Shown one piece after another: positions 8,691 through 49,730 of a DNA stretch of 64,000 nucleotides. This DNA comes from Antedon mediterranea (lineage: Eukaryota; Echinodermata; Crinoidea; Comatulida; Antedonidae). The notes under the pieces were generated by a model. It searched no databases, was not told where the DNA came from, and saw only the letters and a list, made by a program, of their open reading frames with translations. The stretch lies in assembly GCF_964355755.1 (NCBI RefSeq), contig NC_092678.1, positions 21,672,922 through 21,736,921 on the forward strand, in the 5' to 3' direction. How positions within the stretch are numbered: position 1 is the stretch's first letter; each line of letters starts with the position of its first letter. Made by a program: the position numbers and the translations under genes.

Positions 8691-11600
8691 ATGAAGATCA
8701 GAATAACGTTTACGTTTTTGATTATTTTTATGCTTGTTACTTCTCTCGTATCGAGCAGCACAAACGGTGAGTACGTTACGTACGGCGATTTCGTTCTATT
8801 AAGGCCAATAAGGCACGATTTACAAATAGTTTCTTTCCAGGAGCTATTAGAGCTTAAACATAATGTAGACACTTTTTTGTAATGTTTTTGTATTTGAGTT
8901 CGTGTTGTGTCCGTTGGATATTGTGCTCCGCCATCAGAGCAAACAGAATTTCTATGTTTTTTCGTAAAACAAATGATAATAAATGATACTTGACTTGACT
9001 ATAAAGAAATGCAATTTATTTGGTGTTGAATGTCTGAGTCATATCTTATAGATACGCCCCATGTCGTTACGAACAAAGTTTTTCTTTCTCGGAATCTAAT
9101 TTTGTTTATATTAATTACATCTCAGATATGTATAGGCCCAATTCCTCCATTTAGCATTTGAATACTAGGCACGTGACTTTAAATCTCGTAAGTTATGATT
9201 TGGTGTACCGTAACTGAACCGGAACATGAACAAGTGGAATTATAGAAACAAAATCTAGATAAGGTCTACGAACGTTTATTTTGCAACTAGTATTTTATTA
9301 AATAAAAAAACAATAAATAAACTTATTTCATCAAATCACAGGTGCTGTTTGTCCGGATTTGTGGCAACCTTTTGGTCGCAAATGCTACAGATTATTTGAG
9401 AACCCTCTCAACTGGTTTGATTCTCTTGAAGTATGTAAAGGCTATCAGGGAAGTTTAGCGACTTTGAATACAGAAGCAAAACACAATTTCATAGTTGAAA
9501 TGTGCCGCGGTAGCTGCACACAGTGGATCGGATTTAACGACATAGACGTTGAGGGTGTTTGGAAGTGGGCATCTGGAGCTGAGGATAACGATTTTAATAG
9601 TACGTAGGTATTATTATTATTTGTTAGTTACCTTGATTTCAGGCAACAATGCGTTATGTTTCAAGGTCAAGCTTCTGATTGGCTCACTGTTTTGTCTGGG
9701 GTCCCCCAGGGCTCGATCCTTGGTCCCCTCTTATTTAATATCTTTATCAATGATCTTTTGTAATTTTTCTTCTTCTTGCTTACGTTTTGCGGATGATATT
9801 AAACTCTTTAATACTATCAATGGCCCTAATGATACTGTTTTCCTTCAAAATGACCTTGGTACTCTCTTCAGATGGACCACCACCTGGAAGCTGAGTTTAA
9901 ACTTACCAAAATGCAAAATTATGACGATTACTAAGAAAAGACAATATTTCCAATATGATTACAGTATTAATAATCATGTTTTGGAAAGAATTGACCGTCA
10001 TAAAGATCTTGGAATTATTATCGACTGTAACTTAAATTTTATTCCTCAAGTTGATGCTGCTGTTAGTAAAGCAAATAGAATGTTAGGCATGATACGTCGT
10101 AATTGCTGGTGTTTTAAAAATTCTAATACTTTAATTCATTTATATGTTTCTCTTGTCCGTCCCCATCTTGAATACTGTAGTGTTGTGTTTAATTCGTTTT
10201 CGTCTGTTCATAGTACCCGTCTTCAAAGAGTCCAAGATCGTTTTGTACGTTTTGTGTATTCTACTTGTCACACTGTCCTCCTTTGTCTGTCTCTCTTCCT
10301 TCTCTTGTCTCTCTTCCTTCTCTTGTCTCTCTTCCTTCTCTTGTCTCTCTTCCTTCTCTTGTCTCTCTTCCTTCTCTTGTCTCTCTTCCTTCTCTTGTCT
10401 CTCTTCCTTCTCTTGTCTCTCTTCCTTCTCTTGTCTCTCTTCCTTCTCTTGTCTCTCTTCCTTCTCTTGTCTCTCTTCCTTCTCTTGTCTCTCTTCCTTC
10501 TCTTGTCTCTCTTCCTTCTCTTGTCTCTCTTCCTTCTCTTGTCTCTCTTCCTTCTCTTGTCTCTCTTCCTTCTCTTGTCTCTCTTCCTTCTCTTGTCTCT
10601 CTTCCTTCTCTTGTCTCTCTTCCTTCTCTTGTCTCTCTTCCTTCTCTTGTCTCTCTTCCTTCTCTTGTCTCTCTTCCTTCTCTTGTCTCTCTTCCTTCTC
10701 TTGTCTCTCTTCCTTCTCTTGTCTCTCTTCCTTCTCTTGTCTCTCTTCCTTCTCTTGTCTCTCTTCCTTCTCTTGTCTCTCTTCCTTCTCTTGTCTCTCT
10801 TCCTTCTCTTGTCTCTCTTCCTTCTCTTGTCTCTCTTCCTTCTCTTGTCTCTCTTCCTTCTCTTGTCTCTCTTCCTTCTCTTGTCTCTCTTCCTTCTCTT
10901 GTCTCTCTTCCTTCTCTTGTCTCTCTTCCTTCTCTTGTCTCTCTTCCTTCTCTTGTCTCTCTTCCTTCTCTTGTCTCTCTTCCTTCTCTTGTCTCTCTTC
11001 CTTCTCTTGTCTCTCTTCCTTCTCTTGTCTCTCTTCCTTCTCTTGTCTCTCTTCCTTCTCTTGTCTCTCTTCCTTCTCTTGTCTCTCTTCCTTCTCTTGT
11101 CTCTCTTCCTTCTCTTGTCTCTCGTCGTTCCAAGTTTGATCTTCAGTTTTTGTATAAATGTATGAATTCCCGTTTCTATTGTAATTTTATCTCAATTCCA
11201 AATGTAATCTTCTTTATTGTCGTGTCAATGTTACCAAGAATGGTTTTATCTCACGTATTTGTCTTCTTTCTAATAATTGTGTTTTAAAGATAATTCTATT
11301 GATCTCTTTTTTGACCGTTATAATTGTTTTTGTAATAAAATTAGTAAAATTGTATAATTTTGTATTTTTAGGTTTTAAGATTTATATATATTTATATGGT
11401 ATAGTTTATTCCATTCTGTAAGGGGCGGGTTTGAATGAGTTTGAATAAAATAAAATAAAATAAAATTATACAGCGATATAATATTGCCTGTTTAGAGCTG
11501 AAATATTAACATCTGATATCCCCGAGGGAATGATATTTTTCTCGAAGCGAAGCTGAGCGAAAAATATCATTCCCAAGAGTTGCTACACAAAATTACGTGG

Positions 11601-44840: not shown

Positions 44841-47800
44841 ATGATGGAAGGTGTGTCCTCAAGCCACGACCAACCTGTCAATCATTGCATTGTTAAGGGT
44901 TCGTCAAACAATGTTGTCATGACTGGAGATGGAAGTAGTGTCTCTGGTAATTTGTTTTTTTATATATTTCTTTCATTTTTTGCTTGGTTTATTTATACTA
45001 ATGCACTTGTCAATTGTATGACCCATTATGCGACCCCCGGGAAAAGTGCATCATACTGTAGATGCGTCATCATTTACACAAAATTATTGATGCAGGGGTG
45101 CGTCAAAAAACCTAGATGGTACGTCACATCAACAAATAACAATGTGCCAATGTTCGTCACTTTACCACCCACCATATCATAAACAACATGATCACAGTGC
45201 GTCAAAGTAGGTGCATCATGATCACCTAAAGACAAATCACGTTTTGATGGTGCATCATGATATTCATAAGGTATGAAAAACATCGGACAAATGACGCAAA
45301 CTATCCCAGGGGTTGTATAGAGGGTCATACAATTGACGAGTGCATTATAGAGCTACGTTTTATTTGTTTTATAATTAAGCCCTTGAATTACAAAAAAAAA
45401 TAAATAACATTTAACTATGCCGAGAGTCAAATACGGAAAGGGGTAAGACTTTTGTTGTGAAACTGATTTGGTTGTTGATGACTGTGTTCCCTTTCACCCA
45501 TTTACTTTCAATAACTGCATGCTTTGTTTTTCCAGTGAATCTATATAAACCAAAACAACGACAATCAAACAGTGATAGCGGTTATGAAGATGATGCTTCA
45601 CAAAGGGACTCCACGACGGAGGACATGACTGAGGAGGATGCCAAAAGTAACGAGGATGACCTTCCAATGGAGATGGACAATCCTGTGACATCATCATGCA
45701 TCGTCAAAGGTGATGAAAATGTGGTGGTAATGAGCGGTGACGGGAGCAATGTCAAAGGTCAGTAGTTGTGTATTTTTATTAAGATCATCAACTTAACTTT
45801 AATAACCACTATTTAAATTCTTTCCTTTATATAAACTAATAGGAAAATATTTAATATATTGGTTCCAAGAGATTAAGGTTTTATTTTTAACCTTTAAGTT
45901 ATGCAATTACATCATAATAGGGAGGTTTCGCAACCTTACGAATATGATAACGAAAACAGATACGTCATACATTTGTGAAACTTTTGAGCTGATCCCCATT
46001 TCATTCGTAAAGCGTATTCGTGTTGAGGAATATCACCAGTCATATTCGTAACTACAAAACGAGTATAGTTTTTGATCTATTTTGCACATTTTGCATTTGA
46101 ATCAGGAATGATTCATGATTATAATATAATTATAGATTTATTGAAAGTAATTTACTAAAGTAATTTACTAAAATGCCATGTCAATTTTGATAAATAGCAA
46201 TTTTTAAAGTCCTCACTCGCTTTGATGTTACGCTAGGCCTAGGCATCCAAGCACCAAGCATCACATACCTGTCATATTTTGGACGAGCCTCAATATTTCG
46301 TTGCCATGCGAAACAGATTGTTTTATGGCTTACGAATACGTATGCGTGACATATCCGTATTCGTGATCGTATTCGTAAGATTGCGAAACCTCTCTACTAT
46401 TGGGTAAATTAAAGGTTCAACAAGAAAGTAAAAAATAACATGATTATTATTTGTCTAGCGTTTATATATAGTAAAAATAATACATAGAAAATAAGGTTTA
46501 TATTGTATACTGTACAATAGAACCAGGAGACACACCCATAATCAGGGAGAGACACACCCATAATCAGGGAGAGACACACCCATAATCAGGGAGAGACACA
46601 CCCATAATCAGGGAGAGACACACCCATAATCAGGGAGAGACACACCCATAATCAGGGAGAGACACACCCATAATCAGGGAGAGACACACCCATAATCAGG
46701 GAGAGACACTTCCATAATCAGGGAGTTGAAATCTGTTTCAGAACTACACCCCTATTAAAGCGTGTTTCCCACTAGCGACGCAACTCAAGGACGTAACAAA
46801 ATGCAAGTGAATTGACCAATCACAAGCGATGGCTTATTCGCTTGTGATTGCTGTCTGTAACTTCGCTTGTCATTGATTAAAACGCTTGCGTTGCGTTTAC
46901 GTCCTTGCGTTACGTTCTTGCGTTACGTTCTTGTGGGAACCAAGCTTAAGGGGACATGTTGTTTGATCCCTTTATAGGGGTTCCTTCCATTGTATAATAT
47001 TATCTCTTTTTATTTTAGTCAATGTAAATGATAATAAAGCCGCTGATGAAGATATTACAGAAGATGATGATGATAAGCAGAGTGATGTCAATTCCAATAA
47101 CAACAACATGAAGAGTAACCAGTGTCCACCTAAAGAACAGACAGACGCATTCCCTAACTTAGACACCAAAGATAGCATGTTGCATGATGGGACTGATGTC
47201 GGGGAACGACCCGTGGCTCATGTTCAACCAATGCCACAAAAAAAAAAAAACGAAGACGAGATTCCAACCAGATCAAACTCAAACAACGCAATAGTATCTA
47301 ATGAATATTCATTAGGAAATAGTAACCCTTCTTCTTTACGTCCTAAGCGAAGGCTGGTTGAGGAAGTAGAAGAAAGTAATGAATTTTGCAAGAAACAAAA
47401 AACAAATGATGCTGCAGCACAAGGCGAGTACTGTACCACCTGGTAGTGCAAATATGTAAATGTTATGCAAATTAGCTCATGGCATAATATTATTTTGTAG
47501 TTCTAACTCGGCTTTTTTTATTTCAATACCAAATTTAATCTTTTTTAAGCATTAACATTTTAAAATTATTTTGTATTTTTTCAGAATGTGGACCAAGTTC
47601 TTGCCAAACATTTCATCGAGTAAATATAGAGGGCGCCGATAACACTGTAATCACTGCGGGCTCTGGAAGCACAATTCATTGCAAGTTGATGTTTTGTTTA
47701 TTTTGTTTAGAAACCTTTCTGAATTATTTTATTAAATAATTTCATTTTCATCTTTATTTCTTTCCTCAGATTTCCAATGTAAACATTCACAAAAAGAATC

Positions 47801-49020
47801 AACGAAGAACGATTATAATATTGACCATATTGACGGCGAAACCTTGAAAAGTAAGTTCTTGAAAATACTTTTTAATTTCTTCTTTCTCAAAGGTGTCTTC
47901 TTTCACGTGAAAATCATATCAATGTATTTTGTGTTTTATAATATATAGTTATTTTTCTATGCTGTTTGTAATTGTGCCTCTTTTACTTTTAATTATATAT
48001 GTATATTGATTGTAAACAAACGTTATCAGCCAATGGCTGCTGTTTTGTATGTGTTTTTAAACCTAAATAAATAAATAAATAAATAAATAAAAAATACAAT
48101 GCTATGGTTTCAGTGTTAGTCACTAAACCTACACATTTTGACATTTTGTAAAAATAGTGCATAAATATACTAATTTAAAAACATTAAACCAGGTCATTCC
48201 TTTTCTTAAATGTACGTTTTATGGTTAGTTATGGGAAAAGGAGAGAAACCATGCACTACCTGTGTAGCTTGCGTCGGTTTAGCTAGGCTTAGTTGTGTAG
48301 GCCTAGCTGGTTAAAGAGCGGTAATGTAAGAACATCGTACGCTAGCTATAGGCCTAGCCCGGTGTTGTCTTGTTGCTGAATTGTCTTTCCATTTTTGGCA
48401 GAATCTGTTAATAATTTCGCTGAAAAGTTACGGTTCTTTTATTTGTTTACCCCTTCAAGATCGATCGAAAGTGGGTGCATCACACCACAATATGAGAATA
48501 TCAATCCGTGTGCGATGCATTCTGGTATTTATAGTGGGCCGCTTAGAGACAAACAAAATTGTCGCAATAGGTCCATTTTATTTTTACATAAAATGTAGTT
48601 TGTGACCTTAAATTAAGTCTATAAAACGAAGGTCTAGTGGCTTTAAATTATATTTTAATTGAAAGTATGGATTTCCAAGTGATATACTAAGCACCTGTGA
48701 AATGAATCTTCTTCCTAGAAACCGGAATGATGTCCTTTTTCCAGCGGATCTCGAAACATATCGGAAGCACATCCAACAAATGGAAGCAACTTGCCAGGGA
48801 ACTTCCGATGGTTAGTTACGACATTCTGGAAAAAGAGATCAAATTTCTGGAACAGACGCCAGAAACGACTGAGCAAAAAGCCTTTGCTGTACTGGTAAAA
48901 TGGTGGAGGAGGAACAGTGGGGATACTGGCATGAAAAAGAATCTGGTAGCGGCCTTAAGATATATTAAACTGCCATGGTTAGCTGCAACGCTTGAAAAGG
49001 AGATAGAGGGGCTGTCATGA
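44841..49020 (+). CDS. Death-domain protein with three RHIM-like amyloid-type motifs
   Basis: Proposed exons are 44841-44946, 45536-45757, 47019-47423, 47585-47680, 47770-47850 and 48719-49020, all in phase 1. They sum to 1212 bases, or 403 residues. Three similar motifs lie at residues about 16-35 (CIVKGSSNNVVMTGDGSSV), 90-109 (CIVKGDENVVVMSGDGSNV) and 256-276 (NIEGADNTVITAGSGSTI). Each ends at an exon border. The shared G-x-x-N-x-V-x-(M/T) core resembles the RHIM of RIP kinases (hydrophobic-Q-hydrophobic-G-x-x-N), but K or E precedes the glycine. Acidic, low-complexity linkers and a basic PKRRLVEE/CKKQK stretch separate the motifs. The last about 95 residues form a death domain (WKQLARELPM, ILEKEIKFLEQ, VKWWRRNSGD, LVAALRYIKLPWLAATLE). 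A signalling adaptor in cell death or innate immunity is inferred. Introns 3 and 4 appear to have GC donors. ATG 44844 is an equal start candidate. Confidence 0.75.
45000..45347. mobile_element. Palindromic MITE family 4 in intron 1 of the death-domain gene
   Basis: TAATGCACTTGTCAATTGTA at the left and TACAATTGACGAGTGCATTA at the right form the ends, followed inward by TGACCC and its inverse. The interior has repeated GTGCATCATGAT and GTGCGTCA words. A relative lies at 40249-40527. Confidence 0.75.
45917..46400. mobile_element. Palindromic MITE (GAGGTTTCGCAA ends) in intron 2 of the death-domain gene
   Basis: ATAGGGAGGTTTCGCAACCT at the left and GATTGCGAAACCTCTCTACT at the right are inverse copies with small differences. 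CGAATACG-like words recur inside both arms. Length is about 484 bases. Confidence 0.75.
46524..46726. repeat. 22-bp minisatellite, about 9 copies
   Basis: The unit AGGGAGAGACACACCCATAA plus TC repeats almost without change. The last copy has ACTTCC for ACACCC. It lies in intron 2 of the death-domain gene. Confidence 0.92.
46757..46948. mobile_element. MITE family 2 copy in intron 2 of the death-domain gene
   Basis: AAGCGTGTTTCCCACTAGCG at the left and TTGTGGGAACCAAGCTTAAG at the right, with a CAATCACAAGCGATGGC core. It is inverted relative to 7259-7440. Confidence 0.7.
48405..48598 (+). other. Possible alternative last exon of the death-domain gene
   Basis: After the acceptor TTTTTGGCAG a frame opens in the same phase 1 as the other exons (SVNNFAEKLRFFYLF onward) and ends at TAG 48596-48598. 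If used in place of the 48719 exon, the product would keep the three motifs but lose the death domain. No conserved domain is seen, so this may be chance. Confidence 0.25.
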
Positions 49021-49327
49021 CATATTTGATTGCGGGGGTGTTTTTTCTTTATGTGTGTTAATTAAGTTTCTTTATTGGGCAGTAAAACTAATTTGGTAAT
49101 TATACCCAATTGCTAAAAAAGCAATCATATTTTTTAGCAATTCAGTTACCATACAGTGAAATTAATTAGAAAAAAAATATTATGTGTGTAAATTGTAATG
49201 ATTTAGGGAGTTACTATCATTCGATAACCTCACAGCTCTACAAATATGCTTCGTAGCCAGCAATCCTCCTAAAATTGTTTTTGATGTTTAATCACAATTG
49301 TTTTAGTTAATAAAAACACAATTGAGA

Positions 49328-49573: not shown

Positions 49574-49730
49574 AATAATGAATGTTTATGAGTGCAATGG
49601 TATAAATAATGGCACGAGGTGAATGATGAAAGGTTATATCAACGAGGCAAAGCCGAGTTGATATAACCTTTCATCATTCACCAAGTGCCATTATTTGTAC
49701 CATTACACGAATACAAAACATTCATTATTT
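49574..49730. repeat. Large imperfect palindrome
   Basis: The nested inverse words are AATAATGAATGTTT with AACATTCATTATTT, GGTATAAATAATGGCAC with GTGCCATTATTTGTACC, and GGTGAATGATGAAAGGTTAT with ATAACCTTTCATCATTCACC. The centre is GAGGCAAAGCCGAG. DNA to its right (49735-49872) matches an inverted copy at 23278-23400. Confidence 0.8.

Follow-up and report, generated by a model that had tools for sequence, protein, structure and literature searches.

A gene of the crinoid Antedon mediterranea encodes a 403-residue protein in which three spaced copies of a conserved short motif, built around two glycine turns, precede a C-terminal death domain, and a similar motif stands at the C-terminus of the products of two CARD genes that lie in tandem elsewhere in this genome. 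The gene lies in a stretch of 64,000 nucleotides, the whole of which is called the window below, and homologues were searched for within this one genome (354 Mb, 11 large contigs). On our analysis, the motif most likely acts in homotypic assembly of the signalling-amyloid type. Somewhat short of an even chance, we take the protein to be a kinase-less adaptor resembling IMD, in which a short and probably amyloid-forming β-arch motif would assemble death-domain and CARD proteins.

Gene and protein architecture

The protein is obtained by joining six exons in frame over 44841-49020 on the forward strand, a structure that was read from the sequence (Table 1). Introns 1, 2 and 5 have GT donors, while introns 3 and 4 (47424-47769) are two successive GC-AG introns around exon 4. 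All introns are in phase 1, so that any motif exon could be skipped without a frameshift, and the number of motifs may therefore vary by splicing.

Table 1. Exons, motif copies and 3′ signal of the gene, in window positions; a slash marks the exon boundary at a donor.
Feature	Positions	Strand	Remarks
Exon 1	44841-44946	+	start Met at 44841; motif copy 1 at end; donor CTG/GTAATT, phase 1
Exon 2	45536-45757	+	acidic, S/T-rich linker; motif copy 2 at end; donor AAAG/GTCAGT, phase 1
Exon 3	47019-47423	+	long acidic disordered linker with NLS-like basic stretch RPKRR...KKQK; GC donor AAG/GCGAGT
Exon 4	47585-47680	+	motif copy 3 at end; weak GC donor T/GCAAGT
Exon 5	47770-47850	+	short linker; donor AAAA/GTAAGT
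Exon 6	48719-49020	+	death domain (Pfam PF00531), stop
Motif copy 1	44886-44942	+	CIVKGSSNNVVMTGDGSSV
Motif copy 2	45697-45753	+	CIVKGDENVVVMSGDGSNV
Motif copy 3	47620-47676	+	VNIEGADNTVITAGSGSTI
Polyadenylation signal	49304-49314 (approximate)	+	AATAAA type, in putative 3′ UTR; read from sequence

Residues 312-395 match the Pfam Death family (PF00531) with an E-value of 1.9e-5 and 25.1 bits, against a cut-off of 22.6. Together with the in-frame joining of the six exons, this bears out the sequence-only reading of the region, which had placed three spaced RHIM-like motifs and a C-terminal death domain in one protein. No other Pfam domain rises above its cut-off in the 403 residues, and in particular no kinase. 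The model of the death domain has six helices, and its nearest solved folds according to Foldseek are mostly death domains, with FADD first; the best of the weak E-values is 0.016, and the model has a pLDDT of 63. The VIA-align rows, all with Z below 8, indicate just a helical bundle of the death-fold type. A search of this genome with the death domain as query found no close paralogue.

Several further elements of the region can be mentioned here. The basic clusters RPKRR and KKQK of the exon 3 linker (47340-47400) are about 15 residues apart and resemble a bipartite nuclear localisation signal. In intron 2, at 46520-46730, a 22-base unit (agagacacacccataatcaggg) is repeated about nine times as a minisatellite. 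Just 3′ of the gene, at 49587-49713, there is a long, nearly perfect inverted repeat with 62-nt arms that are 87% complementary, a 3-nt loop and a TATATCAACGAGGC/GCCGAGTTGATATA core, which looks like the remnant of a hairpin-forming mobile element. The upstream neighbour on the same strand is a gene for a Rab32-like GTPase, and at 10200-11150 of the window a simple repeat array of about 0.9 kb, open in several frames, lies between C-type-lectin-like exons.

Nature of the motif

The three copies conform to the consensus [CIV]-x-[VI]-x-G-x-x-N-x-V-[VI]-x-x-G-x-G-S-x-[VI], and a six-frame scan of the 64,000-nt window found no others. In 200,000 shuffles of residues 1-303, the full pattern did not occur once, and the bare core G..N.V...G did not occur three times in any shuffled sequence. 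Copies 1 and 2 are identical at 14 of 19 residues, 10 of which are encoded by different synonymous codons (dS saturated, dN 0.24), and the protein sequence of the motif is thus under constraint; the pattern looks like that of an old duplication. No stretches within residues 1-290 are more hydrophobic or more β-prone than the three motifs, which are set in linkers with 23% D+E and 33% S/N/T/Q. The copies do lie at exon ends, as had been noticed from the sequence, but they do not quite end the exons, since the last strand spans the splice junction in each case (SSVS/VNLY, SNVK/VNVN and STIH/YFQC for copies 1, 2 and 3, respectively).

When exon 2 alone is modelled with AlphaFold, the strands CIVK and VVVM flank a GDEN turn, with N71 as single bridge residue, and the rest is unstructured. 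The confidence is modest, with a mean pLDDT of 64 and values of 70-73 in the blocks that contain the motif. Strands found in the motif only argue against a globular β domain (what the sequence-only reading had named as speaking against it were homologues with the motif in a globular β-fold of no amyloid tendency); the model supports a strand-turn-strand element in disordered sequence, outside any predicted globular fold. A match of the motifs to DUF3060, a β-helix type repeat (E 0.03, under the cut-off), was rejected, given that each copy stands singly and at a distance from the next.

It should be pointed out that a charged residue (K or E) precedes the glycine and that the second turn contains an acidic D, both of which are atypical of a dry amyloid core and count against the amyloid reading. 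An unlikely but serious option is that the motif instead docks onto a folded partner, as a peptide or β-hairpin of the β-addition or SUMO-interacting type, and does not polymerise at all, with oligomerisation left to the death domain. Docking peptides, too, are typically short, conserved and hydrophobic and set in disordered acidic linkers, and several copies would provide avidity. Copies 1 and 2 also have VVVM beside acidic residues, a stretch that we take to be SUMO-binding-like. However, the conserved stretch, of about 22 residues and with two glycine turns, is longer than most docking peptides, and the acidic flank is not kept in copy 3 and in the CARD copies. Moreover, the motif occurs with different death-fold domains, as expected of a homotypic assembly motif.

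We now consider whether such an assembly motif could belong to a known class. The RHIM is defined by the core tetrad (V/I)-Q-(V/I/L/C)-G (PMC9444067), which is found in none of the five copies and nowhere in the window protein or in the two CARD proteins. Pfam RHIM (PF12721) matches neither the protein nor, even at E 10, the motifs, with the caveat that HMMER filters may drop very weak RHIM matches, and it has no match over cut-off in the genome, in a search that weak matches can escape. Because the tetrad is absent and the Pfam family unmatched, we do not class the motif as a RHIM, and membership in that family is not supported. If the assembly reading is right, however, the motif would function in the manner of a RHIM. 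The fungal PP core GxQxG is likewise absent from the window protein. The motif profile matches no solved amyloid in the PDB, and the sole match of a single motif there, to Lsm7, is by chance. No amyloid family of Pfam or NCBIfam matches the motif; the NCBIfam matches obtained are all chance ones, among them an intein C-terminal hit that falls in the tail of one of the CARD proteins.

A true RHIM or cRHIM by descent, in which one residue was inserted before the glycine and the Gln was lost, is nevertheless conceivable, and we judge it improbable. It would account for the common G-x-x-N-x-hydrophobic core, the length of about 20 residues and the death domain as companion, and absence of the Gln is a known trait of cRHIMs (PMC9496462). 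In addition, the more RHIM-like CARD copy (NIQVSGSHNVVV) reads N-I-Q-V-S-G-S-H-N-V, in which the I-Q-V is RHIM-like and is separated from the G by one additional residue. Apart from the missing tetrad and the negative Pfam searches, what stands against such a descent is the second conserved G-x-G/N turn and the V-x-V-N ending, which are consistent across the copies and fall outside the RHIM definition used here.

CARD genes with a similar C-terminal motif

The two CARD genes lie in tandem on another chromosome (contig C4), at 35943919-35945066 and 35950185-35951622, and the last exon of each encodes a C-terminal GxxN/GxG motif laid out as in the window copies (IQVSGSHNVVVTGGNGNIININR and VKIVGSKNSVIVGGSNISININN). 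The one found first, by a genome-wide pattern search that also recovered the three window copies, has its CARD in the first two exons (E 3.2e-9) and the protein end GYNIQVSGSHNVVVTGGNGNIININR; in its paralogue, whose motif match is 6.5 kb upstream, the CARD has an E-value of 4e-6 and the protein ends in SNVKIVGSKNSVIVGGSNISININN. The Pfam CARD scores of the two proteins are 37.1 and 27.2 bits, against a cut-off of 23.9. Both genes have a phase-0 intron within the CARD and a phase-1 intron ahead of the motif exon. All five copies align without gaps over about 22 columns as [CIV]-x-[VI]-x-G-x-x-N-x-V-[VI]-x-x-G-x-[GN]-x-x-[VI]-x-[VIY], with N as the next residue in four of the five.

By score alone the link between the death-domain and CARD motifs is weak, as the profile of the window copies gives the CARD copies 23 and 16 bits and unrelated interspersed-repeat sequences up to 18. 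The two sets are nonetheless probably, although not provably, related, because the CARD matches are in frame and C-terminal, belong to tandem paralogues, share the splice phase and fall in the death-fold superfamily. We regard this as independent support for the earlier view that a motif reminiscent of the RHIM, both conserved and repeated, is joined to a death fold, and two CARD genes ending in it may point to a signalling-amyloid family distinct from the RHIM.

That the CARD likeness is mere chance, and that only the internal repetition of the death-domain gene is real, seems rather unlikely to us. The core DNA pattern is indeed not enriched in the genome (101 matches, against 173 for the reversed control), and 12 further matches inspected in context have no gene-like setting. 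Of the remaining matches, about 85, several have stops or lie in repeats. Against chance, the CARD matches belong to tandem paralogues and are separated by 6.5 kb; both are in frame and C-terminal, the exon phases of the two genes are identical, and the motif is better conserved between the two genes than the CARD itself (44% and 22% identity, respectively).

An interspersed repeat with the open frame TATEGLWVGSDNNIICTGTGFNTSPSVS, present in many copies on most chromosomes, imitates the motif core, and matches of the pattern 'GLWVGSDNNII' were discarded as belonging to an interspersed repeat. An array on contig C8 with GHNNTILHIGNG was also set aside as a repeat, with no domain context seen.

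An erroneous gene model, with the motif exons and the death-domain exon in different transcripts or the gene in decay, is quite unlikely: two donors are GC and one of these is weak, the six-exon structure comes from sequence reading, and the death-domain exon has its own ATGs close to its start, which makes a separate short gene conceivable in principle, but phase 1 and an open frame are kept at every junction, splicing restores the V-x-V-N ending that the CARD genes carry unspliced (NIININR and NISININN), and the motif copies have diverged synonymously.

The death-fold repertoire of the genome is very large, with at least 149 Death matches, at least 90 DED matches at E 0.001 (of which many score below the cut-off) and 17 CARD matches; clusters of near-identical copies occur on contigs C3 and C5. 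On contig C6, DED and Death matches separated by 0.6 kb (9655460 and 9654647) look like a FADD-like gene. At 30 Death loci taken from elsewhere in the genome the motif is absent within 1.5 kb, and it is therefore not a general feature of the death domains of this animal. No receptor bearing the motif was found in this genome.

Relation to known systems and possible mechanism

The parallel with RIPK1 drawn in the sequence-only reading holds for the death domain and for the G-x-x-N-x-hydrophobic core that the RHIMs of RIPK1 and RIPK3 (PF12721) share with the motif. The window protein differs in having neither the (V/I)-Q-(V/I/L/C)-G tetrad nor a kinase, and since a kinase is missing, insect IMD is the better parallel. 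Drosophila IMD has a cRHIM without the tetrad Gln and a C-terminal death domain, and signals through amyloid (PMC9496462). The window protein resembles it as a kinase-less adaptor with a short RHIM-like motif that lacks this Gln, and its Pfam matches show the same C-terminal death domain without a kinase. Unlike IMD, it has three motif copies with a different signature, including the second G-x-G turn, and the partners found for it carry CARD domains. Adaptors of the IMD/cRHIM kind recruit FADD and are cut by a caspase-8 relative; of these components, the adjacent DED and Death matches on C6 provide a FADD-like gene in this genome.

RIPK1 homologues with both RHIM and death domain are reported from vertebrates, lancelets and some spiralians, but not from echinoderms, tunicates, cnidarians or arthropods (PMC12119088). 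In Ambulacraria and in one lancelet, RIPK1 is reported to have no RHIM (PMC11507063), and the nemerteans surveyed have no RHIM, though an Imd-like death-domain protein exists (PMC9835746).

Among fungal systems, HET-s/HRAM is similar in its motif of about 21 residues, in its distribution, with more than one copy in one protein and a single one in each partner (two HET-s motifs in effectors and one in their receptor, PMC4518210), and in a glycine at the β-arch. The signature is different, however, and the motif is carried by a HeLo pore-former whose partner is an NLR (PMC4518210), in contrast to the death-fold adaptors here. The fungal PP motif, centred on GxQxG (PMC5485727), and bacterial BASS3 are alike in that a motif of about 20 residues feeds regulated death; as to PP, its core is in no copy of the window protein.

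For the assembly reading, the following sequence of events can be proposed. The protein would be an adaptor of innate immunity or cell death, whose disordered N-terminal part carries short self-assembling β motifs and whose C-terminus is formed by the death domain. Each motif would constitute a strand-turn-strand-turn-strand unit, with the G-x-x-N turn followed by the G-x-G-S/N turn, and would be disordered in the resting protein. Upon a trigger, motifs of different molecules would stack in register as a cross-β fibril, in which the invariant Asn could form a polar ladder and the V/I positions the core. The fibril would cluster the death domains, and FADD-type DD-DED proteins and caspases, or alternatively NF-κB kinases, might then be recruited. 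Three copies per molecule may lower the nucleation threshold or cross-link fibrils. The single-motif CARD proteins are likely partners that could seed or join the fibril, in this way bridging CARD input to death-domain output.

Conclusion

Whether the RHIM is the only metazoan signalling amyloid has been raised as a question in the literature (PMC7889193). It is possible, though we would not wager on it, that the G-x-x-N/G-x-G double-turn motif of these death-domain and CARD adaptors represents a second, non-RHIM family of signalling amyloids in animals, with one fibril joining both pathways. The window gene and its two CARD relatives provide named sequences with which the question can be tested. 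If the proposal is true, animals would, like fungi and bacteria, have several amyloid signalling codes, and one of these would link CARD signalling to death-domain signalling in an animal whose death-fold repertoire is very large and in which no RHIM was detected.
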